Part shown: positions 1-11,205 of the stretch, one piece after another
Layout of the letters: each line of letters opens with the position of its first letter
Position numbering within the stretch: the first letter of the stretch is position 1
Source of the DNA: a bacterium
Lineage (GTDB): Bacteria > CAIWAD01
NCBI GenBank assembly: GCA_030685015.1
Contig: JAUXWS010000043.1
Span: 1 to 64,000, forward strand
Direction of reading: 5' to 3'
Length of the DNA stretch: 64,000 nucleotides
The notes under the pieces: model-generated
Seen by the model: the letters and a program-made list of their open reading frames with translations, nothing else
Told to the model about the DNA's origin: nothing
Database searches by the model: none
Program-made: the position numbers and the translations under genes

Positions 1-315
1 GCCCTGCGCCGGCGCTGGGCGGGGCGGCCGGCCACCCAGTGGGTCGACCTGCGCCAGGAGGGAAGCCAGGCGCGCCGCGCCCTCATCCTGGGACCGCAGG
101 GCCATGTGGCCAGCCTGGACCTGGGGCGGAACGGCGAGCACGTCTTCCATGGGCGCGACGGCCGACGGGTGGCGTTGTCCGTGCAGGACGGCGGATTGGC
201 CGTGGTGGAAGCCGCCTGCCGGCACCGGCACTGTTTGAGGCAGGGTCGCGTCAGCCTGGCGGGGGAGCGTCTGGTGTGCGCCCCGGCCGGTCTGCTGGTG
301 GAGCTGGAGGCCTGA
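1..315 (+). CDS. NusG domain II-containing protein, 5' end cut by window edge
   Basis: The reading frame is open from base 1 to the TGA at 313-315, giving the last 104 codons of a protein whose start lies outside the window. The C-terminal half resembles the NusG_II family. An acidic strand is followed by EAACRHRHCLRQGRV and then ERLVCAPAGLLVELEA, matching the usual EaxCPxxxCvkxG / IVCLPnrlvVei pattern of that fold, with two close cysteines and a third further on. Proteins of this family are often encoded beside rnf and apbE genes, as here (apbE starts 1 nt downstream). Their biochemical role is not known; a link to membrane redox complexes is inferred from context only. The visible part has no signal peptide because the N-terminus is missing. 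Confidence 0.7.
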   Translation, partial: ALRRRWAGRPATQWVDLRQEGSQARRALILGPQGHVASLDLGRNGEHVFHGRDGRRVALSVQDGGLAVVEAACRHRHCLRQGRVSLAGERLVCAPAGLLVELEA

Positions 316-2161: not shown

Positions 2162-2662
2162 ATGGCCTGGATGCCAGCCAAGGACAGGTCCGCCGACCGG
2201 GAGCTTCAGGTCGAGGAGGGCGTGGTGCGGGAGATCCAGCCGGGACCCCCCCTGCTGGCCCTGGTCCAGCTGGCGGCCGGTCCCGCCTGCGAGGAATGCG
2301 GCGCCCGCCTCTTCTGCCGGCCCGCGGATGCCGGGCGACGCTCCCTGCTCGCCGAAGCGGAAGGTGTGGAGCTTCAGGTGGGGCAGCGCGTCCGTGTGGC
2401 CGTGACCGGGGGCCGTCTGCTCTCCGCCTCCCTCTGGAGCTATGGCTACCCCCTGGCGGGACTTTGCCTGGGCACGGGCCTGGGCTGGCATCTGTCGGCC
2501 GGCCTGCCCGGCCGCGAGGCTCTCTCCTTCCTGGCCGGCCTGCTGCTGGCCGCCCTGCCTCTCTACATCCTGCATGTCCGCAGCCGGCGCCGCCCCGGCC
2601 AAACGTGGCTGCAGGCCCGGGTCTTGCCCACCCTGCCCACCGGGAGCGACCGGCGGACTTGA
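2162..2662 (+). CDS. rseC: SoxR-reducing system RseC-like membrane protein
   Basis: 166 residues from ATG 2162, preceded by TGGAGAAG. The N-terminal soluble part has VVREIQPGPPLLALVQL, then a CEECGARLFC cysteine cluster, then VGQRVRVAV. Two hydrophobic segments follow (about residues 80-100 and 108-126), then a short basic tail. This order (Cys-containing N-terminal domain, 'G..V.V' strand, two helices) is that of the RseC/MucC family, often encoded next to rnfB in FCB and proteobacterial genomes. RseC is tied to keeping SoxR reduced or to envelope sigma control in gammaproteobacteria; here an accessory role to Rnf is inferred from position 25 nt after rnfB. A longer upstream start in the same frame would overlap rnfB by 101 nt and is unlikely. 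Confidence 0.75.
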   Translation: MAWMPAKDRSADRELQVEEGVVREIQPGPPLLALVQLAAGPACEECGARLFCRPADAGRRSLLAEAEGVELQVGQRVRVAVTGGRLLSASLWSYGYPLAGLCLGTGLGWHLSAGLPGREALSFLAGLLLAALPLYILHVRSRRRPGQTWLQARVLPTLPTGSDRRT

Positions 2663-2710
2663 TCGAACCGATCGCGGGCGGCAAGTTGTCCCGGTCAAGC
2701 GGAGACGGCC

Positions 2711-3073
2711 ATGAATTACGACGAAAGCAACATCTTCGCCCGCATCCTGCGCGGAGAAATCCCCTGCCGCAAGGTCTACGAGGACGAGTACGCCCTTGCC
2801 TTCCACGACCTGCATCCGCAGGCCCCCGTCCACGTGCTGGTCATTCCCAAGGGGCCTTACCGCAGTCTGGATGATTTCAGCCGCCTGGCTCCGCCCGAGC
2901 TGCAGGCCGGCTTCCTGCGGGCGGTGGGAGCCACGGCGCGCGAATTGGGACTGCCGCCGCGGGGCTACCGCATCCTGGCCAATCACGGGGCGGATGCCGG
3001 GCAGGAGGTGCCGCATTTCCACGTGCACATCTTCGGTGGGCGCCCCCTGGGTCGCATGGTGACTCCCGGCTGA
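2711..3073 (+). CDS. HIT family (histidine triad) nucleotide-binding protein
   Basis: 120 residues, close to the normal length for HinT-type proteins. It begins NIFARILRGEIPCRKVYED, typical of the bacterial HinT branch, and contains HVLVIPKGPYRSLDDF. The catalytic histidine triad is EVPHFHVHIFGGRPLG (HxHxH). HinT enzymes hydrolyse purine nucleoside phosphoramidates and act in the cytoplasm. SD-like GCGGAGACGG sits before the ATG. It lies 48 nt downstream of the rseC-like gene and is probably the last gene of that transcript, since a new promoter and a terminator-like leader follow. Confidence 0.93.
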   Translation: MNYDESNIFARILRGEIPCRKVYEDEYALAFHDLHPQAPVHVLVIPKGPYRSLDDFSRLAPPELQAGFLRAVGATARELGLPPRGYRILANHGADAGQEVPHFHVHIFGGRPLGRMVTPG

Positions 3074-3108
3074 AGCCGACCGGCCCTTTCAGGGGGGCCG
3101 GGCAAGGG

Positions 3109-3139
3109 TTGGCCGAAGGGAGGCCAATTCCTATGTTGG
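3109..3139 (+). promoter_or_regulatory. Predicted FCB-type promoter of the greA-aro operon
   Basis: TTG (3109-3111), a 20-nt spacer, then TATGTTGG (3132-3139), which fits the Bacteroidetes-like -33/-7 layout TTG-N20-TAnnTTTG with one mismatch. Transcription would start near 3143-3147, giving a leader of about 105 nt before the greA start. The same 20-nt spacing is seen at six other sites in this window. The assignment is from pattern only. Confidence 0.55.
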
Positions 3140-3151
3140 GGCCCGTCGACA

Positions 3152-3163
3152 GGTCCGCGGACC
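3152..3163. promoter_or_regulatory. Perfect 12-bp palindrome in the greA leader
   Basis: GGTCCGCGGACC is fully self-complementary and would lie about 5-10 nt after the predicted start of transcription. It could be an operator for a dimeric repressor or the first hairpin of a structured leader. No known regulator site was recognised. Confidence 0.35.
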
Positions 3164-3208
3164 GCCGGGGCGGCGGCAAAGGGAGTCGCCGTGGGGACAT
3201 GACACGCC

Positions 3209-3233
3209 AGTGGCGCCGCCGGCGCCACTTTTT
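3209..3233 (+). terminator. Intrinsic terminator (attenuator) in the greA leader
   Basis: Stem TGGCGCC (3211-3217), loop GCC, stem GGCGCCA (3221-3227), extended by one or two outer pairs, then CTTTTT (3228-3233). It lies between the predicted promoter and the greA Shine-Dalgarno (AAGGAG, 3242-3247). Its place makes it a leader attenuator, not the end of an upstream gene. A competing pairing is visible: GGCGGCGGC (3169-3177) can pair with 3215-3223 (8 of 9 positions), which would break the terminator. Confidence 0.7.
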
Positions 3234-3252
3234 AATGGATCAAGGAGCGCCG

Positions 3253-3735
3253 GTGAGCCAGGTCATCACACGCAAATCCTATCAGCGGCTCCAGGATGAG
3301 CTGCGGGCCATGCGCGAGGTGGAGCAGCCGGCCATCCGAGATCGGATCGCCTCGGCCCGCGACCTGGGCGACTTGTCGGAGAACGCCGAGTACCACGCCG
3401 CCCGCGAGGAACTCAGCATGCTCATGTACAAGGTCGCCAAGTTGGAGGAGCGCCTCGCCGCCTGCCGCATCGTGGACGAGGACGACGTGGACACCTCCAG
3501 CGTGCGCGCCTTCACGGAAGTGACCTTGATGGATCTGGGCCTGGAGCGCGAGGTGGTCTTCAAGCTGGTGGAGCCCGAGGAGATGGACTTCGCCAGCGGG
3601 CGCATCTCGGTGGGCAGTCCCGTCGCCAAGGGACTGCTGGGCAAGAAAGTGGGCGAGGTGGCGGAGATCCAGGTGCCGGCCGGCACCAAGCGATTCAAGG
3701 TCTTGCGGATCGAAAAGTACTCCGGGGACCGCTGA
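3253..3735 (+). CDS. greA: Transcription elongation factor GreA
   Basis: 160 residues from GTG 3253, chosen because AAGGAG (3242-3247) is correctly spaced for it; an in-frame ATG at 3235 would place that site inside the gene. The N-terminal coiled coil carries the GreA signature ARDLGDLSENAEYHAAREE, whose acidic tip residues (DLSENAEY) enter the RNA polymerase channel to trigger cleavage of backtracked RNA. The C-terminal FKBP-like domain has RISVGSPVAKGLLGKKVGE. The length matches the family (about 158). It leads an operon with aroA 16 nt downstream, and its leader holds a terminator, so the factor may be controlled by attenuation. E. coli greA also has a terminator in its leader (the source of GraL RNAs). 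Confidence 0.96.
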   Translation: MSQVITRKSYQRLQDELRAMREVEQPAIRDRIASARDLGDLSENAEYHAAREELSMLMYKVAKLEERLAACRIVDEDDVDTSSVRAFTEVTLMDLGLEREVVFKLVEPEEMDFASGRISVGSPVAKGLLGKKVGEVAEIQVPAGTKRFKVLRIEKYSGDR

Positions 3736-3751
3736 TCCCCTGAAAGGACTC

Positions 3752-5110
3752 ATGCGCATCCAACCCGCCCGCCGCATTTCCGGCACGTTGCGCCTGCCGG
3801 GTGACAAATCCCTCAGCCACCGGCATCTTCTGCGCGCCGCTCTTGTCGAGGGGCGCAGCGGACTGATCGGGCTGCCCGACGGCCAGGACGTGGGAGCCAG
3901 CCTGGATGCGGTGCAGGCCCTGGGCGTCCGTGTCGAGCGCACGGGCGACCACATCCTCCTGGACAGCCCCGGCCGCGGTGGCTGGCGGGCTCCCGGCGTG
4001 ATCGATTGCGGCAACAGCGGCACGACGGCCCGTCTCCTGATGGGTCTGCTGGCCGGCTCTCCCTTCCCGGTGGAGCTGCGCGGCGACGAGTCGCTCAGCC
4101 GCCGTCCCATGGAACGGGTGGCGCGCCCCCTGCGGCTGATGGGGGCGGAGATCGAGCTGCAGCGCGACGGCTTGCCCCTGCGCCTGCGCGGCGGTTCCCT
4201 GCGCGGCCTGAGCTATGAGCTGCCCGTGCCGTCGGCCCAGCTCAAGAGCGCCGTCGTCCTGGCCGCCCTCCAGGCCGAGGGTGAAAGCCGCATCCGCGAG
4301 CCGCTGCCCAGCCGCGACCACACGGAGCGGTTGCTGGGGCTCACCTCGGAGATGGTCGCCTGCACCAGCAACGGCCGGACGAGCGCCGTGCGGGAGTGGA
4401 TCGTGTCGTCCCGCGACATGCCCCGCCAGCCCTGGAGCGAGGTCCGGCTGCCCGCCGACCCATCCACCGCGGCTTTTTTCGTGGCGGCCATGCTGCTGAT
4501 GGAGGAAGGCGAACTGCTCATCCCCGACCTCCTGGTCAACCCCTTTCGCCGCCAGTACCTGGACGAGCTGATGGAGTGGGGGGCGGCCATCGACCTGGAG
4601 GAGATCCCCGGCGAGGGCTTCTGCGGCCCCGCCTTCTGCGGTGCGCAAGGTTGCCATCCCGGTGAGCAATGCCCCATCGCCGAGCCGGTGGCCCACCTGC
4701 GGGTCAGGGCTGGGTTGCCCCTCAGCGCCCGGCGGGTGGGTGGACCCCTCATCCCCCGCCTGCTGGACGAGATTCCCGTGCTGGCCGCCGTGGCCATGGC
4801 CACCGACGAACCCTTCGTGGTGGAGGATGCCGGTGAACTCCGCCACAAGGAGAGCGACCGCATCAGCGGCGTCTGCCGCATGCTGGCGGCTTTCGGCGGC
4901 CAGGTGGAGGAGCGGGCCGACGGTTTCATCCTGCAACCCCCGGAGCGCATCCGGGCCGGCCGCTTCGATGCCCGGGGCGACCACCGCATGGCCATGGCCG
5001 CCGCCGTGCTGGCCCTGGCGGCGGATGACGAGAGCGTGATCGAGGGGGGCGAAGCGGTGAACTCCAGCTTTCCCGCCTTCCTGGAGACCCTGCGCCGCCT
5101 GGTGGGCTGA
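3752..5110 (+). CDS. aroA: 3-phosphoshikimate 1-carboxyvinyltransferase (EPSP synthase) with a 4-Cys insertion
   Basis: 452 residues; SD GAAAGGA precedes ATG 3752. It transfers enolpyruvyl from PEP to shikimate-3-phosphate in the shikimate pathway. Substrate-binding motifs are LPGDKSLSHR (K19, S20, R24), GNSGTTARLL (87-96), RGDESLSRRPM, the catalytic acidic residue in PRLLDEIPVLA, and DHRMAMAAAVLAL near the end. The pattern is closest to Bacillus-type enzymes. At residues 291-307 there is an extra loop with four cysteines, C291, C296, C301 and C307 (C-x4-C-x4-C-x5-C), where related enzymes go directly from the strand into the next domain. This looks like a metal-binding or disulfide loop and is unusual. 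The gene lies in the greA-aro operon, 37 nt before aroE. Confidence 0.95.
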   Translation: MRIQPARRISGTLRLPGDKSLSHRHLLRAALVEGRSGLIGLPDGQDVGASLDAVQALGVRVERTGDHILLDSPGRGGWRAPGVIDCGNSGTTARLLMGLLAGSPFPVELRGDESLSRRPMERVARPLRLMGAEIELQRDGLPLRLRGGSLRGLSYELPVPSAQLKSAVVLAALQAEGESRIREPLPSRDHTERLLGLTSEMVACTSNGRTSAVREWIVSSRDMPRQPWSEVRLPADPSTAAFFVAAMLLMEEGELLIPDLLVNPFRRQYLDELMEWGAAIDLEEIPGEGFCGPAFCGAQGCHPGEQCPIAEPVAHLRVRAGLPLSARRVGGPLIPRLLDEIPVLAAVAMATDEPFVVEDAGELRHKESDRISGVCRMLAAFGGQVEERADGFILQPPERIRAGRFDARGDHRMAMAAAVLALAADDESVIEGGEAVNSSFPAFLETLRRLVG

Positions 5111-5147
5111 GCACCCTTCCACCGATGCGGCCGCGGAGGAGATGGCC

Positions 5148-6041
5148 ATGCCCGATTACTTTCCCCGTCCCGTCGTCCCCAGTCCCCAGGCCAGGCTGCG
5201 CGTGGGCCTGCTGGGCCGCGGGATCGCCGGCAGCCTCTCGCCCCGCATCCATCGCCGCGCCGCCGAGCTGGCCGGCATCGACCTGGAGTTCGACCTGCTG
5301 GACCTGTCCCGCCGCGAGGAGCTGGGAGCCGCCCTCGCCCGCGCGCACGAGGCCGGCTGGCAGGGCCTCTCCGTCACCATGCCCTGGAAGACGGCCCTTG
5401 AACCCCACCTGCTGGGGATGAGCCCGGAGGCCATCTCCATCGGCGGCGTCAACCTGCTGCTGCGGGCCGAGCAGGGCTGGATCGGCGAGAACAGCGACAG
5501 CGAGGGCTTCCTGCGACCCCTGGCCCGCCGTCGGCTGGCCTTCAGCCACGCCCTGGTGGTGGGGGGCGGCGGCGCGGCGCGGGCCGTGCTGCACGTCCTC
5601 GCCTCCATGCCCTTCGTCGAGGCGGTGACCGTGCGCAGCCGCCGGCGCGACTCCGCCCGCGCCCTGGTCGAGGAGTTCTCCACGGCCCGGGCCCGCTGGA
5701 CGGCCCTGGGCTGGGCGGACCCCCTCCCCGCGCCGGCCGATCTCATCGTCAATGCCACGCCGCTGGGGACGGAGGGTCCCCTCGCGGCGGAGCTGCCCTG
5801 TCCGCCGGAGTGGATCCAGCCAGGCGCCGCCTGCTTCGATCTGGTCTACCGGCCTCGCCGGACGGCCTTTCTCGCGGCCGCCCGGGACCGTGGCGCTCGG
5901 ACGGTGGAGGGGCTGGAGATGCTGGTGGCTCAGGCCCGGCGCGCCTTTGAGGCGTGGAGCGGCCTCCCCTTCGCCGAGGAGGATCTGCGGCGCGAGCTGG
6001 AGCTGGTCGCGCCCGGCGGACCGGCGGAGTCCACCCCATGA
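5148..6041 (+). CDS. aroE: Shikimate dehydrogenase (divergent)
   Basis: 297 residues from ATG 5148, preferred over ATG 5142 because GGAGGA (5135-5140) is 7 nt from 5148 but 1 nt from 5142. It reduces 3-dehydroshikimate with NADPH. Motifs are recognisable but altered: SLSP of the shikimate site, SVTMPWK with the catalytic Lys (usually NVTxPxK), ENSDSEGF with the catalytic Asp (usually NTD), VVGGGGAARAV as the nucleotide-binding loop, and NATPLGTEG. The C-terminal helix TVEGLEMLVAQA matches the family. Key residues are kept, so it should be active, though a quinate/shikimate dehydrogenase of related type is possible. The stop overlaps the aroC start (ATGA). Confidence 0.88.
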   Translation: MPDYFPRPVVPSPQARLRVGLLGRGIAGSLSPRIHRRAAELAGIDLEFDLLDLSRREELGAALARAHEAGWQGLSVTMPWKTALEPHLLGMSPEAISIGGVNLLLRAEQGWIGENSDSEGFLRPLARRRLAFSHALVVGGGGAARAVLHVLASMPFVEAVTVRSRRRDSARALVEEFSTARARWTALGWADPLPAPADLIVNATPLGTEGPLAAELPCPPEWIQPGAACFDLVYRPRRTAFLAAARDRGARTVEGLEMLVAQARRAFEAWSGLPFAEEDLRRELELVAPGGPAESTP

Positions 6042-7234
6042 GATGGCTTTCCGCCGGGGAGTCCCATGGCCCCGCCATGGGCATCGTGCTGGAGGGACTG
6101 CCGGCGGGCCTCCCCCTCAGCGCGGACCGCATCGATCGGGAACTGGCGCGGCGCCAGCAGGGCCATGGCCGCGGCGGGCGCATGGGCATCGAGCAGGATC
6201 GGGTGGAGATCCTGGCCGGGCTGCGCCACGGCCTCACCCTGGGCAGCCCCCTGCTTCTGGTCGTGCCCAACCTGGACCACGCCAACTGGGCCGAGGCCAT
6301 GGCCCCGGCCCCGCCTGGCGATGGCGCCGCCGCCGGGGCGCCCGTGCGCGTGCCACGGCCGGGCCACGCCGACCTGCCCGGCGCCCTCAAATACGGGCAT
6401 CGGGATCTGCGCAACGTCCTGGAGCGGGCCAGCGCCCGCGAGACGGTCAACCGCGTATTGGCCGGGGCGGTGGCCGTGCAGCTGCTGGAGCCGCTCGGCG
6501 TGCAGACCGGCGCCTTCGTGACGGCGCTGGGCGGCCTGGAAGCGGCGCCGGGCAGCCGTCCCTCTCTCGAGACGCCCGCGGGCGAGTTGGCCGCCCGCGC
6601 CGACGCCAGTCCGGTGGCCTGCCTGGATCCGGAAGCCGAGGCCCGCATGGTGGCGGCCATCGACGCGGCGCGCGAGGCGGGGGACACCCTGGGCGGCGTG
6701 GTGGAATGCCGCGCCACCGGCCTGCCCGCCGGTCTCGGCAGCCATGTCCACTGGGACCGCCGGCTGGATGGACGCCTGGCCGCCGCCCTGCTCAGCCTGC
6801 CCGCCGTCAAGGGGCTGGAGATCGGCGAGGCCTTTGCCGCCGCCGCCCAGGGCGGTCGGGCGGCTCTCGATCCCATCCTGCCCATGCCCGGGGGACGGGT
6901 GGGTCGGGGCGGCAATCGCCAGGGCGGCCTGGAGGGCGGCATGACGACGGGCGAGACCCTCTGGCTGCGCCTGGCCATGAAACCGCTCTCGACCCTGCGC
7001 CGCCCCTTGCCCAGTGTGCAGCTGGACAGCCTGGCGCCCCACTCCGCACACCGTGAGCGGAGCGACGTCTGCGCCCTGCCCGCCCTGGCCGTCATCGCCG
7101 GACACGTGCTGGCCTGGGAGGCGGCCCGCGCCCTGCTGGAGGTCTTCGGCGCCGACAGCTGGGAGGAGACGCGTCGCCGCCTCCAGGAGGGCGAGCGGCG
7201 CTGGGCCTCCATCACGGGGCCGGAGCCGGCATGA
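6038..7234 (+). CDS. aroC: Chorismate synthase
   Basis: 398 residues from ATG 6038, which overlaps the aroE stop. The enzyme makes chorismate from EPSP and needs reduced FMN. The three signatures are present: GESHGPAM at residues 7-14, the basic RQQGHGRGGRM with EQDRVEI, RPGHADLPGALKYGHRD..NVLERASARET, and NRQGGLEGGMTTGE near residues 304-317. The length is slightly above the usual 350-390. It overlaps aroK by 4 nt, and translation of aroE-aroC-aroK-pabC is probably coupled throughout. Confidence 0.96.
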   Translation: MRWLSAGESHGPAMGIVLEGLPAGLPLSADRIDRELARRQQGHGRGGRMGIEQDRVEILAGLRHGLTLGSPLLLVVPNLDHANWAEAMAPAPPGDGAAAGAPVRVPRPGHADLPGALKYGHRDLRNVLERASARETVNRVLAGAVAVQLLEPLGVQTGAFVTALGGLEAAPGSRPSLETPAGELAARADASPVACLDPEAEARMVAAIDAAREAGDTLGGVVECRATGLPAGLGSHVHWDRRLDGRLAAALLSLPAVKGLEIGEAFAAAAQGGRAALDPILPMPGGRVGRGGNRQGGLEGGMTTGETLWLRLAMKPLSTLRRPLPSVQLDSLAPHSAHRERSDVCALPALAVIAGHVLAWEAARALLEVFGADSWEETRRRLQEGERRWASITGPEPA

Positions 7235-7764
7235 TCATCCTGGTGGGCTTCATGGCCTGCGGCAAGACGATGCTGGGCTCCCTGCTCGCCCTCTGCCTGG
7301 GGCGCCCCTTCAAGGATCTGGACCGCGAGGTGGAGCGGGTGGCGGGCTGCCCGGTGGGAGAGATCTTCCGCCGCGAGGGCGAAGCAGGCTTCCGCCGACG
7401 AGAGGAGGAGGCCTTCCGTCGACTGGCGGGCGCCGTCCGGGGTGTGCTGGCCGTGGGCGGCGGCCTGCCCTGCCGGCCGGGCCTGGCGCGGCGGCTGCGC
7501 GAGGCCGGGCTTTGCCTCTACCTGGACACCGACCTCGACCTGATCATCCAGCGCTTGGCGGGACCGGCGGCCGCCTCCCGCCCCCTCCTGGCGGATCTGC
7601 CGGCGGATGAGCGGGCCGGCCGCGTGCGGGCGCTGCACGCCGAGCGCGACCCCCACTACCGGCGCGCCGGCCGGGCCGTGCCCCTGCCCGCCGACGAGAG
7701 CGCCGAGCAGCATTTGGACCGTCTCCTGGCGGCGGTGGCCGGGGGCGGAAAGGAACCGGCATGA
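7231..7764 (+). CDS. aroK: Shikimate kinase
   Basis: 177 residues. The P-loop GFMACGKT (residues 6-13) binds ATP; FKDLDREVE and FRRREEEAFRRL hold the shikimate-binding Asp and Arg; VLAVGGGLP is the GGG substrate loop; the lid region contains SRPLLAD with an arginine. It phosphorylates shikimate before AroA acts. The order aroA-aroE-aroC-aroK in one operon covers four consecutive or linked steps of the pathway. aroB, aroD and the DAHP synthase are not in the window. ATGA overlaps join it to both neighbours. Confidence 0.93.
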   Translation: MIILVGFMACGKTMLGSLLALCLGRPFKDLDREVERVAGCPVGEIFRREGEAGFRRREEEAFRRLAGAVRGVLAVGGGLPCRPGLARRLREAGLCLYLDTDLDLIIQRLAGPAAASRPLLADLPADERAGRVRALHAERDPHYRRAGRAVPLPADESAEQHLDRLLAAVAGGGKEPA

Positions 7765-8687
7765 ACCCGCGCTACTGCATCCTGGACTACCGCATCCGCC
7801 ACCAGGACGAGGTGATGGTCAGCGCCCTCAGCCCGGCCCTGCTCTACGGCGACAGCCTCTTCGAGACCCTGCCCGTCGTGGAAACGGTCCCTGTCTTCCT
7901 GGAGGAGCATCTGGCGCGGCTCAACTTCAGCGCGGCCGCGCTGGGCTATGCCACCCGGTTGAAAGAGGGGCGGGTGCGGGTGGCGGTGGACCACCTGCTC
8001 ACGGGCAACCTGCTGGAACAGGGCCGCCTGCGCATTACCCTCTTCCGTGGCAGGCCCTTGGCCCCCGCCAGCGGCGACCCGGCGGTAGATCCCGAACTGG
8101 CCCCCCTCCTGCGCGGCGCCGAGGTCACCGAACACGTGCTCATGCAGGTGGCCGGCCTGGATGACCGCGCCCCCTGCGCTGCCGGCCTGGCACGGGTCAA
8201 CAACCGCCACCTGGATCCCCTTGCCCGCCACAAGACAGGCAACCGGCTCTTCTACCGGCTCTTCCGCCACTGGGACGCGACGGGTCCGGGCGAGGGGCGC
8301 TCCTGGCTCTTCCCCTGCCAGTCCGACGAGCGGGAGGTGCTGGTGGTGGACGAGCTGGATCGCCTGCTCGAGGGCACCGTCAGCAACATCTTCCTGGTGG
8401 TGGACGGCTGCGCGCTGACGCCGCCCCGGGAGGTGGGCATCCTGCCGGGCATCGTGCGCGGCCGGGTGCTGGACGACGAGCGCCTGCCCGCGGAGGTGCG
8501 CATCCTCAAGCTGGGCGATCTGGAGCGCGCCAGCGAAGCCTTTCTGACCAACTCGGTGGTGGGGATCCGGCCCTTGACGCGGGTGGGCGGGCGAAGCTTC
8601 GACGAGGCGCCCGGTCCCCTCACCCGCCGCGCCATGGCCTCCCTCGAGAACCAGATCCTGCGGAGCATCGCCCCGCTCCTGCCTTGA
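7761..8687 (+). CDS. pabC: Aminotransferase class IV protein, probably 4-amino-4-deoxychorismate lyase
   Basis: 308 residues, PLP fold type IV. Visible features are LLYGDSLFETLPV near the N-terminus (family 'GDG.FET' motif), HKTGNRLFYRL with the likely PLP lysine, LEGTVSNIFLVVDG, REVGILPGIVRGRVLD and EAFLTNSVVGIRPL. The fold is shared by branched-chain aminotransferases, D-amino acid aminotransferases and ADC lyase (PabC). Its position as last gene of an operon that ends in chorismate favours PabC, which makes 4-aminobenzoate for folate. Substrate choice cannot be decided from the motifs alone. AAAGGA precedes the ATG. Confidence 0.75.
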   Translation: MNPRYCILDYRIRHQDEVMVSALSPALLYGDSLFETLPVVETVPVFLEEHLARLNFSAAALGYATRLKEGRVRVAVDHLLTGNLLEQGRLRITLFRGRPLAPASGDPAVDPELAPLLRGAEVTEHVLMQVAGLDDRAPCAAGLARVNNRHLDPLARHKTGNRLFYRLFRHWDATGPGEGRSWLFPCQSDEREVLVVDELDRLLEGTVSNIFLVVDGCALTPPREVGILPGIVRGRVLDDERLPAEVRILKLGDLERASEAFLTNSVVGIRPLTRVGGRSFDEAPGPLTRRAMASLENQILRSIAPLLP

Positions 8688-8765
8688 GCCGGTCGGAGCG
8701 GAGAGCGGTGGAAGCCGGCACCGGGCGGGCGCCAGCTTCGGAAGCATGGCTTGAGCGGGGGTGTC

Positions 8766-8975
8766 TCAGCCCTGGCGCAAGCCGATGCGGGCCTTGACGC
8801 GGGGTCGGACCACCTCGGGCGGCATCAGGTGAAGGGCGCTGCGGGCGGCGCGGTCGCACAGATAGCCGATCACGGCCAGCAGCTCGTCGCGCTCCATGTC
8901 CTCCAGGCGCAGGTTCCATAAGGTTGAATTGCGAATACGGTCGCGGTACTGAACAAATTCCGCCGGGATTCTCAT
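8766..8975 (-). CDS. Small conserved-type hypothetical protein (69 aa)
   Basis: The ATG at 8975 has a strong GGAGGGG site 5 nt upstream, which argues for a real gene. The product is mostly helical, with RNSTLWNLRLEDMERDELLAVIGYLC in the middle (written here in part only) and a basic tail. No signal peptide, membrane segment or known motif was recognised. It lies 64 nt downstream of glgB on the same strand and converges with pabC. Function unknown. Confidence 0.6.
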   Translation of the reverse strand: MRIPAEFVQYRDRIRNSTLWNLRLEDMERDELLAVIGYLCDRAARSALHLMPPEVVRPRVKARIGLRQG

Positions 8976-9039
8976 GGTGCCCCTCCAGCCTGGTTGACAG
9001 GCGGTAGATCGGCATCCCGACCGGTCAACTTCAGCGCGC

Positions 9040-11205
9040 TCAGGCCGGATCATCCTGTTTGAGCACCAGCAGGCCCAGCGGCGGCAGCGTCAGCACGAGG
9101 CTGTGGTCGCGGCCATCCCAACCCTGGGCTTCGCTGTGGGAGCCGCCCGCGTTGCCCAGGTTGGAGCCGCCGTAGCAGGCGGCGTCCGTGTTGAGGATCT
9201 CCCGCCAGTAGCCCGGGACCGGCAGGCCCACCCGGTAGCCCAGGCGCGGCACGGGGGTGGCGTTGGCCACGACGAGCAGCTCCCCGCCGGCGCGGCTGCG
9301 GCGCAGGAAGCTGAAGACGCTGTGCTCGGCGTCGTGGACGTTGATCCACTCGAAGCCCTCCGGCACGAAATCCAGCTCGGAGAGCGCCGGTTCCCCCCGG
9401 AGCAGGGCATTGAGCTGCCGCACCAGCAGTTGCAGGCCGGCGTGCTCGGGCAGTGCCAGGGCGGCCCAGTCCAGCTGGGCGCCCTCGTCCCACTCCGCCG
9501 TCTGGCCCCATTCGCCGCCCATGAAGAGGAGCTTGCGCCCGGGATGGCACCACATCCAGGCCAGCAGCAGGCGCAGGTTGGCGCGCTGCTGCCAGGGATC
9601 CCCCGGCATGCGGGAGAGCAGGCTTTTCTTGCCGTGCACCACCTCGTCGTGGCTGAGCACGAGGATGAAGTTCTCGTGCCAGGCGTACATGAGGGAAAAG
9701 CTCATCAGGTCGTGGTGCCAGCGGCGATGCACGGGATCCAGCTCGAAGTAGCGCAGGGTGTCGTTCATCCACCCCATGTTCCACTTCAGGTTGAAGCCCA
9801 ACCCGCCCAGATGGACGGGGCGGCTCACCATCGGCCAGCTCGTGCTCTCCTCGGCCACGGAGAGCAGGCCCGGGTAGCGTCCGAAGAGCAGGATGTTCAG
9901 CTCGCGCAGGAAGTCGATCGCCTCCAGGTTCTCGCGGCCGCCGTGGATGTTGGGCACCCACCCGCCCTCGCCTCGGCTGTAGTCCAGGTAGAGCATGGAG
10001 GCGACGGCATCGATGCGCAGGCCGTCGGCGTGGAACTCCTCGATCCAATAGAGGGCGTTGGCCAGGAGGAAGTTGCGCACCTCGCGGCGGCCGAAATTGA
10101 AGACAAGGGTGCCCCAGTCCGGGTGCTCGCCCTGGCGGGGATCCTCGTGCTCGTAGAGGGCCGTGCCGTCCAGACGGGCGAGGCCGTGTCCATCCTTGGG
10201 GAAGTGGGCGGGCACCCAGTCCAGGATGACGCCCAGGCCGGCCTGGTGCAGGCGGTCGACGAAGGCGCGGAAGGCGTCGGGCGAGCCGAAGCGGGCGGTG
10301 GGGGCGTAGTAGCCCAGCACCTGGTAGCCCCACGAGGCGTCCAGGGGGTGCTCCATCACGGGCAGGAGCTCGACGTGGGTGAAGCCCTGCTCGAGCAGGT
10401 AGGGGATCAACTGGTCGGCCAGCTGCCCCCAGTCATGGAAGGTCCGGCCGTCCCAGGGCCTGCGCCAGCTGCCCGGATGCAGCTCGTAGATGCTGAGCGG
10501 GCGGTCCAGCTGCGGACGCTGCCGCCGTTCCTCCATCCAGGCGGCGTCGCCCCAGGCGTAGGGCGGGTCCGCCGGCACGAGCGAGGCGGTGCCGGGACGC
10601 AGTTCCGCCTCGCGGCCGAGGGGATCGGCCTTGAGCGCGATCCGTCCGTCCGCCCCGTGGATCTCGTACTTGTAGCGCCCCCCCGGCTCCAGGCCGGGAA
10701 CGAACAGCTCCCAAACCCCGCTGGCGCCGCGGTTGCGGCAGGGATGACGGCGGCCATCCCAGCGATTGAAGTCGCCCACCACCGAGACGCGCCGGGCGCC
10801 CGGCGCCCACAGGGCGAAATGGACGCCCTCGCAGCCGTCGACCAGCCGCCGACGGCTGCCCAGCACTTTCCACAACTCCTGGTGCCGGCCCTCGTGGATG
10901 AGATGCAGGTCAAGCTCGCCCAGGAGGGGCGGGTGCACCCAGGGGCAGCCCTCTTCCCAGTAATCTCCGCTCAGATGGGTCAGCCGCAAGCGGCAGGCGG
11001 CGGCGGGCAGACGCTCATCCAGCAGGATCTCGAAGAGGCCGGGACGCGTCTCCTGCAGGGGGCGGGACACCGGCCCCTCCAGGTGGACGGCGGCGCAGTC
11101 GGGCGCCCAGGTCCGCAGGCGCCAGCGCCCCGCTTCAGGATGGAAGCCGAGCAGGTCGAAGGGGTCATGATGCAGGCCTTGCGCCAATCGGGTGTAAGCG
11201 TCCAC
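9040..11205 (-). CDS. glgB: 1,4-alpha-glucan branching enzyme
   Basis: 721 residues from GTG 11205, with a near-perfect GGAGGTGATC site upstream. It makes alpha-1,6 branches in glycogen. Domain order is an N-terminal CBM48 domain (about residues 1-120), a GH13 barrel and a C-terminal beta domain. Barrel motifs are DWVPAHFPKDGHGLA (region I), GLRIDAVASMLYLDY with the nucleophile Asp (region II), SVAEESTSWP with the acid/base Glu (region III) and LSHDEVVHGKKSL (region IV). Length matches GlgB. No glgA or glgC lies nearby, so it stands alone between tRNA-Ala and a small gene; storage genes must be elsewhere. A long open frame on the opposite strand is a shadow of GC-rich codons. Confidence 0.96.
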   Translation of the reverse strand: MDAYTRLAQGLHHDPFDLLGFHPEAGRWRLRTWAPDCAAVHLEGPVSRPLQETRPGLFEILLDERLPAAACRLRLTHLSGDYWEEGCPWVHPPLLGELDLHLIHEGRHQELWKVLGSRRRLVDGCEGVHFALWAPGARRVSVVGDFNRWDGRRHPCRNRGASGVWELFVPGLEPGGRYKYEIHGADGRIALKADPLGREAELRPGTASLVPADPPYAWGDAAWMEERRQRPQLDRPLSIYELHPGSWRRPWDGRTFHDWGQLADQLIPYLLEQGFTHVELLPVMEHPLDASWGYQVLGYYAPTARFGSPDAFRAFVDRLHQAGLGVILDWVPAHFPKDGHGLARLDGTALYEHEDPRQGEHPDWGTLVFNFGRREVRNFLLANALYWIEEFHADGLRIDAVASMLYLDYSRGEGGWVPNIHGGRENLEAIDFLRELNILLFGRYPGLLSVAEESTSWPMVSRPVHLGGLGFNLKWNMGWMNDTLRYFELDPVHRRWHHDLMSFSLMYAWHENFILVLSHDEVVHGKKSLLSRMPGDPWQQRANLRLLLAWMWCHPGRKLLFMGGEWGQTAEWDEGAQLDWAALALPEHAGLQLLVRQLNALLRGEPALSELDFVPEGFEWINVHDAEHSVFSFLRRSRAGGELLVVANATPVPRLGYRVGLPVPGYWREILNTDAACYGGSNLGNAGGSHSEAQGWDGRDHSLVLTLPPLGLLVLKQDDPA

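Follow-up and report, generated by a model that had tools for sequence, protein, structure and literature searches.

Does transcription of greA in this bacterium run into a built-in stop, and would such a stop serve greA itself or the shikimate-pathway genes that follow it? A first-pass annotation of the window (the whole 64,000-nt stretch of DNA that was analysed) had placed an attenuator in the greA leader and suggested that it may control the entire operon. We examined the locus together with a comparison set of five genomes of the phylum, in which G001 and G002 belong to the same genus as the window, G003 to the same family and G004 to the same class. The features of the locus are as follows.

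2711-3073, plus strand: HIT (HinT-like) gene 5' of greA, from a family-model match
3109-3137, plus strand: predicted greA promoter, -35 TTGGCC (3109-3114), 17-nt spacer, -10 TATGTT (3132-3137); kept in G001, G002 and G003
3145-3233, plus strand: predicted leader RNA of ~90 nt, from the promoter and terminator positions, its start deduced from the -10 box
3152-3163, plus strand: 12-bp palindrome GGTCCGCGGACC, seen in the sequence, not conserved
3209-3233, plus strand: predicted intrinsic terminator, 9-bp stem 3209-3229, 3-nt loop, T5 3229-3233, from the sequence; kept in G001, G002 and G003
3242-3247, plus strand: greA Shine-Dalgarno AAGGAG, from the sequence
3253-3735, plus strand: greA, transcript cleavage factor, GTG start; NCBIfam TIGR01462 above cut-off
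3752-5110, plus strand: aroA; TIGR01356 above cut-off
5148-6041, plus strand: aroE; NCBIfam aroE models, below the curated cut-off, start from a script gene call
6038-7234, plus strand: aroC; TIGR00033 above cut-off
7231-7764, plus strand: aroK; shikimate kinase models, below the curated cut-off
7761-8687, plus strand: pabC-like gene, aminodeoxychorismate lyase / aminotransferase class IV; weak NCBIfam matches

A predicted promoter and intrinsic terminator precede greA

The intrinsic terminator that had been proposed ahead of greA proved real. It reads AGTGGCGCC-GCC-GGCGCCACT-TTTT, the isolated hairpin has a folding energy of -16.3 kcal/mol, and a hairpin of at least 6 bp followed by a T-run occurred anywhere in the 120 nt 5' of greA in 1.65% of dinucleotide shuffles. 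The T-run had been placed correctly at 3229-3233, whereas the stem is slightly longer (9 bp) than the 3211-3227 first given. The global fold of 3133-3260 was of ordinary stability (z -0.07), the hairpin with its T-run alone being notable, and a scan of 2600-3900 returned this hairpin as the sole terminator-like site. It lies 135 nt past the HIT stop codon and 23 nt ahead of the greA start codon, and the distance of 8 nt to the greA ribosome-binding site claimed earlier agrees with the positions of AAGGAG and of the GTG at 3253. An in-frame ATG at 3235, upstream of this GTG, is an unlikely start, because G001 has ATG CCG TGA there and GTGAG(C/T)CAGGTC is shared by the three members of the genus. 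By sequence comparison, a built-in transcription stop in the greA leader, just past the promoter, is well supported.

The stem (GTGGCGCC-N3..8-GGCGCCAC) has one further genomic site, C36:8660, and with this single recurrence the hairpin was rejected as a repeated element. In 300 kb of the same genome, with gene calls and gene starts taken from a simple script, 12 intergenic hairpins with a T-run were found; besides that of greA, three lay at most 30 nt ahead of a same-strand called gene, each 6-50 nt past the preceding same-strand gene, as for 3' terminators.

The promoter-like pair noted ahead of the leader also held up. TTGGCC-17-TATGTT is a predicted sigma70-type promoter whose score was equalled in 0.4% of shuffles and which is kept in relatives; a scan with the strict E. 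coli consensus gave no match, this sequence not being close to that consensus. The pattern TTGnnn-16..18-TAnnTT occurs six times in the 64-kb window, both strands counted, where about one is expected under an order-2 Markov model, and the greA site is the lone plus-strand occurrence within 2600-9100. The looser TTGnnn-15..19-TAnnTT was found 26 times in 300 kb of the same genome, with a 17-nt spacer in 17 cases; 25 of the 26 sites lay outside called genes, in DNA that makes up 13.7% of those 300 kb. Promoters of tRNA genes in the lineage read TTGACA-17-TATATT, TTGACA-17-TACTTT, TTGACT-17-TATGTT (G001) and TTGCCG-17-TATCTT (G003), and the predicted greA promoter fits the lineage type given by these and by the intergenic motif. 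Within the window the form TTGnnn-17-TAnnTT stands at 3109, 11435 (-), 25948, 38066 (-), 54167 (-) and 60454 (-). The -10 box of the lineage is similar to the TAnnTTTG of Bacteroidota.

The single-copy greA (one match in its own genome) is followed by aroA, aroE, aroC, aroK and pabC in the order annotated earlier, pabC being weakly assigned; the genes are separated by gaps of up to 37 nt or joined by short overlaps. We found no terminator-like site inside this operon or that of G002, and no internal promoter of the lineage's usual type in the operon of the window, so the leader should set aro transcription too in this genus, unless promoters of another type exist. Any HIT transcripts extending to this point would run into the same terminator. 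In the read-through RNA, GCGCCGG at 3248-3254, in the greA start region, can pair with CCGGCGC at 3219-3225 of the terminator; by inspection this pairing is not conserved in relatives, and it might mask translation, though in this species alone.

The leader terminator is kept with greA in related genomes

Promoter and terminator were present in the same order in all four genomes of the family compared (the window's own, G001, G002 and G003), these being the informative genomes, three of them from one genus. Stem and T-run are retained in both relatives from the genus, G001 and G002. The promoters of the relatives read TTGCCC-16-TATCTT (G001), TTGGCA-17-TATCTT (G002) and TTGAAA-16-TACCTT (G003), their stems end 22-25 nt before the start codon, and the T-run lies directly behind the stem in all four genomes; the stem and loop sequence of G003 is unlike those of the genus. 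In G004, from the same class, this kind of hairpin was missing and no promoter scored better than shuffles.

The gene order of G003 helps to tell which gene the element accompanies. Upstream of greA it has an opposite-strand neighbour, a prolyl-tRNA-synthetase-like ORF named from its translation, and the divergence of this gene rules out that the hairpin there ends a transcript arriving from upstream. Downstream, a strong terminator-like hairpin (GAGACCCCGCCGGATGGCGGGGTTTT TCTC) lies past greA, and aroA begins only after a gap of 236 nt, against a spacing of about 16-35 nt between the two genes in the genus of the window. The leader terminator is kept in G003 although greA is cut off from aroA, which indicates that the element tracks greA and not aro; on this gene-order evidence the leader element goes with greA, and the aro genes would be passengers in this genus. 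Of the earlier proposal that one leader controls the whole operon, the terminator and the lack of internal separation stand, but G003 makes a control reserved for the shikimate genes unlikely. The greA leader of G003 (L004) carries tandem terminator-like hairpins with T6 and T5, about 90-63 and 51-35 nt before position 1501.

Search for a sensor in the leader

Between promoter and hairpin the leader varies from 38 to 64 nt in length across genomes, and this stretch showed similarity in no genome pair, even within the genus, which argues against an aptamer, a leader peptide or a conserved antiterminator. The 12-bp palindrome of the first-pass annotation is present at 3152-3163, but belongs to this pre-terminator stretch without similarity to relatives. 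The segment 3169-3177 (GGCGGCGGC) had been put forward as able to pair with the 5' arm of the terminator, and it can pair with GCCGCC, the end of that arm plus loop. Nevertheless, the pairing that the pre-terminator part can form with the 5' arm was matched in strength by a fraction of shuffles of 0.15 for the window, 0.52 for G001, 0.84 for G002 and 0.05 for G003; with a pairing at chance in its own genome and not kept in relatives, this antiterminator was rejected. The pre-terminator stretch was unalignable, and no conserved alternative pairing that would exclude the terminator was found in the four genomes.

These four genomes have no common leader ORF. The one candidate for a leader peptide, GTG-GGG-ACA-TGA after AAAGGGAG in the window, has three codons and no counterpart in relatives, and was discarded. 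Among Rfam covariance models, no T-box or riboswitch gave a match of note at the locus, and the own leader yielded only a chance-level hit to WT1-AS_5 (16 bits against a gathering score of 80) over 3082-3126.

Leader terminators of greA in other lineages

Beyond the lineage we surveyed 80 greA loci (L031-L110), mostly from Bacteroidota, which are the best matches to the GreA alignment and hence a non-random sample, none of them recognisably from this lineage; greA begins at about position 5001 in most of them. A strict hairpin with T-run lay at most 150 nt upstream of greA in 46 of these 80 loci (for example L085:4952-4975 and L101:4929-4956), with 0.3 expected from shuffles; of 290 control genes whose upstream DNA was free, 20 had one. 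On a looser list of 51 hairpins, a -7 box TAnnTTTG (TTCG allowed) was found at most 30 nt before the hairpin in 44, compared with 9 of 510 control windows. The distance from box to hairpin was mostly 1-9 nt, and with the box only a few nucleotides ahead the greA mRNA of these Bacteroidota seems to start with the terminator-like hairpin, whose 5' end would coincide with the transcription start or lie close to it. Base-pair covariation in 25 aligned hairpins amounted to 20 double-change cells, a value reached in none of 500 shuffles. At the gathering threshold, Rfam gave no match in the 11 of the 80 loci checked.

The flavobacterial hairpin was rejected as a greA-specific motif, since its covariance model also matches AAATCCCG..CGGGATTTT ordinary-looking terminators elsewhere in the same genomes. 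In greA loci of other families (L006-L030) a hairpin was found in one of 25 (L013), so the leader hairpin is not universal. In two further Bacteroidota loci, L146 and L152 (about 1501-1560), a gene comes directly after a TAnnTTTG-like box plus a hairpin of the AATCC(C/T)G type with its T-run, the ORFs being N-acetylglucosamine-kinase-like and ammonium-transporter-like, as named from translation.

The E. coli greA leader terminator, GraL, was described by Potrykus et al. in 2010 and the work extended by Dylewski et al. in 2019; according to the account in PMC6829880, about one third of greA transcripts pass it and active GreA represses greA in cis through the leader, a feedback reported there as seen in vivo only, as probably needing an accessory factor and as being at odds with attenuator or riboswitch schemes. 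GraL was recovered by the same kind of terminator scanner as used here and shares with the window the succession of promoter, short leader and intrinsic terminator in the 5' UTR, then greA. Unlike GraL, the leader of the window has its terminator end 23 nt from the start codon instead of 102 nt, a local alignment of the two leaders scored at chance level (205 of 300 shuffles did as well), and greA is followed by aro genes; in the stretch of E. coli examined there are none downstream on that strand, in keeping with the earlier statement that GraL is not linked to aro. Naville and Gautheret (2010, PMC2965389) named greA/rnk as one of the families with the most frequent 5' terminators, with predicted leaders in Proteobacteria, bacilli and Clostridia. 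The leader described here likewise has a premature terminator ahead of a greA-family gene, but lies in another phylum and has no conserved antiterminator, where a clear one was reported in PMC2965389. The GraL-like arrangement was thus already known, and this lineage, going by its sequences, adds a member in another, small phylum-level lineage. Classical attenuators of aromatic amino acid operons use a leader peptide or a T-box. As in these, a leader terminator here precedes biosynthetic genes; unlike them, the leader has no leader peptide, T-box or conserved alternative stem, and its first gene is greA.

Proposed mechanism and alternative explanations

The best explanation, which we consider likely as a whole, is partial termination in a greA-linked leader with read-through into the aro genes. 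RNA polymerase would start just past the promoter at 3109-3137 and produce a leader of about 90 nt; the terminator at 3209-3233 would release a share of the polymerases with the short RNA, and the remainder would continue into greA and, in this genus, onwards along the co-transcribed aroA-aroE-aroC-aroK-pabC. The fraction reading through would depend on the terminator and on the state of the elongation complex, with GreA itself most plausibly among the inputs, which would amount to negative feedback as reported for GraL. Promoter, terminator and their order are conserved and linked to greA rather than to aro, and from these the actual termination and the level of read-through are predicted. 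The feedback step, taken alone, is a tentative proposal by analogy, and its transfer to this lineage is uncertain because in E. coli the effect was observed in vivo only and depends on a further factor.

Were the hairpin a plain 3' terminator of the HIT gene or its operon, greA would be reached by read-through or from another promoter. The HIT gene does lie upstream on the same strand in the genus, and no other hairpin with a T-run stands between it and greA; yet the distance from the HIT stop is considerable (135 nt) with a conserved promoter in between, greA is close by, and there is no room for a promoter between hairpin and Shine-Dalgarno. The presence of the hairpin behind a divergent gene in G003 led us to reject HIT termination as its sole role, and we hold this reading to be very improbable, while the hairpin may end HIT transcripts as a second role. 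An attenuator of the classical type, responding to aromatic amino acids or some other shikimate product by way of an alternative stem or leader peptide, would suit the five chorismate-pathway genes downstream in the same apparent operon, as well as the pairing open to 3169-3177 in its own genome. It is nonetheless extremely improbable, given that no antiterminator pairing, common leader ORF or sensor-region similarity is conserved even within the genus, that Rfam gave no match of note at the leader, and that the terminator persists in G003 despite the separation of aroA from greA there.

A constitutive leader terminator or 5' hairpin, which would hold greA-aro mRNA at a fixed low level or tune mRNA stability or translation without regulation, is consistent with the hairpin and T-run being all that is kept in the leader, and with the pairing of GCGCCGG to CCGGCGC in the window's read-through RNA, although that pairing is not conserved in relatives. 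We regard it as unlikely: a T-run straight after the stem in all four genomes is expected for termination and not for stability alone, and greA leader terminators in other phyla suggest a reason tied to GreA.

If partial leader termination does operate here, early intrinsic termination might be a recurrent form of greA control (in this lineage, Bacteroidota, Proteobacteria and Firmicutes) that has no conserved sensor, the terminator reading GreA activity on RNA polymerase directly and the same loop throttling chorismate synthesis in this genus; this wider reading is rather doubtful. For the GraL-mediated self-control by GreA treated in PMC6829880, a lineage in which only promoter and terminator are kept narrows what the minimal sensor could be, as does the mostly Bacteroidota group in which the hairpin follows the promoter box by a few nucleotides; both groups are natural constructs for testing, and the G003 arrangement separates the effect on greA from the aro genes.

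Gene neighbourhood of greA

In G002, aroC (L112:9061-10224) is 51% identical to that of the window, the values for aroA, aroE and pabC being 68-73%, and a gap of about 240 nt lies ahead of it; aroC had no match in the G003 cluster (L113). A displacement of aroC in relatives is possible on these identities. In G004 (L114:2575-5307) the ORFs after greA are PspC-like, aroE-like and kinase-like (an aroK candidate), so that proximity of greA to aro genes seems to extend through the class, in G004 with the leader terminator missing. The HIT gene lies directly 5' of greA in the window, G001 and G002, and directly 3' of greA in many of the Bacteroidota loci (L031-L110).
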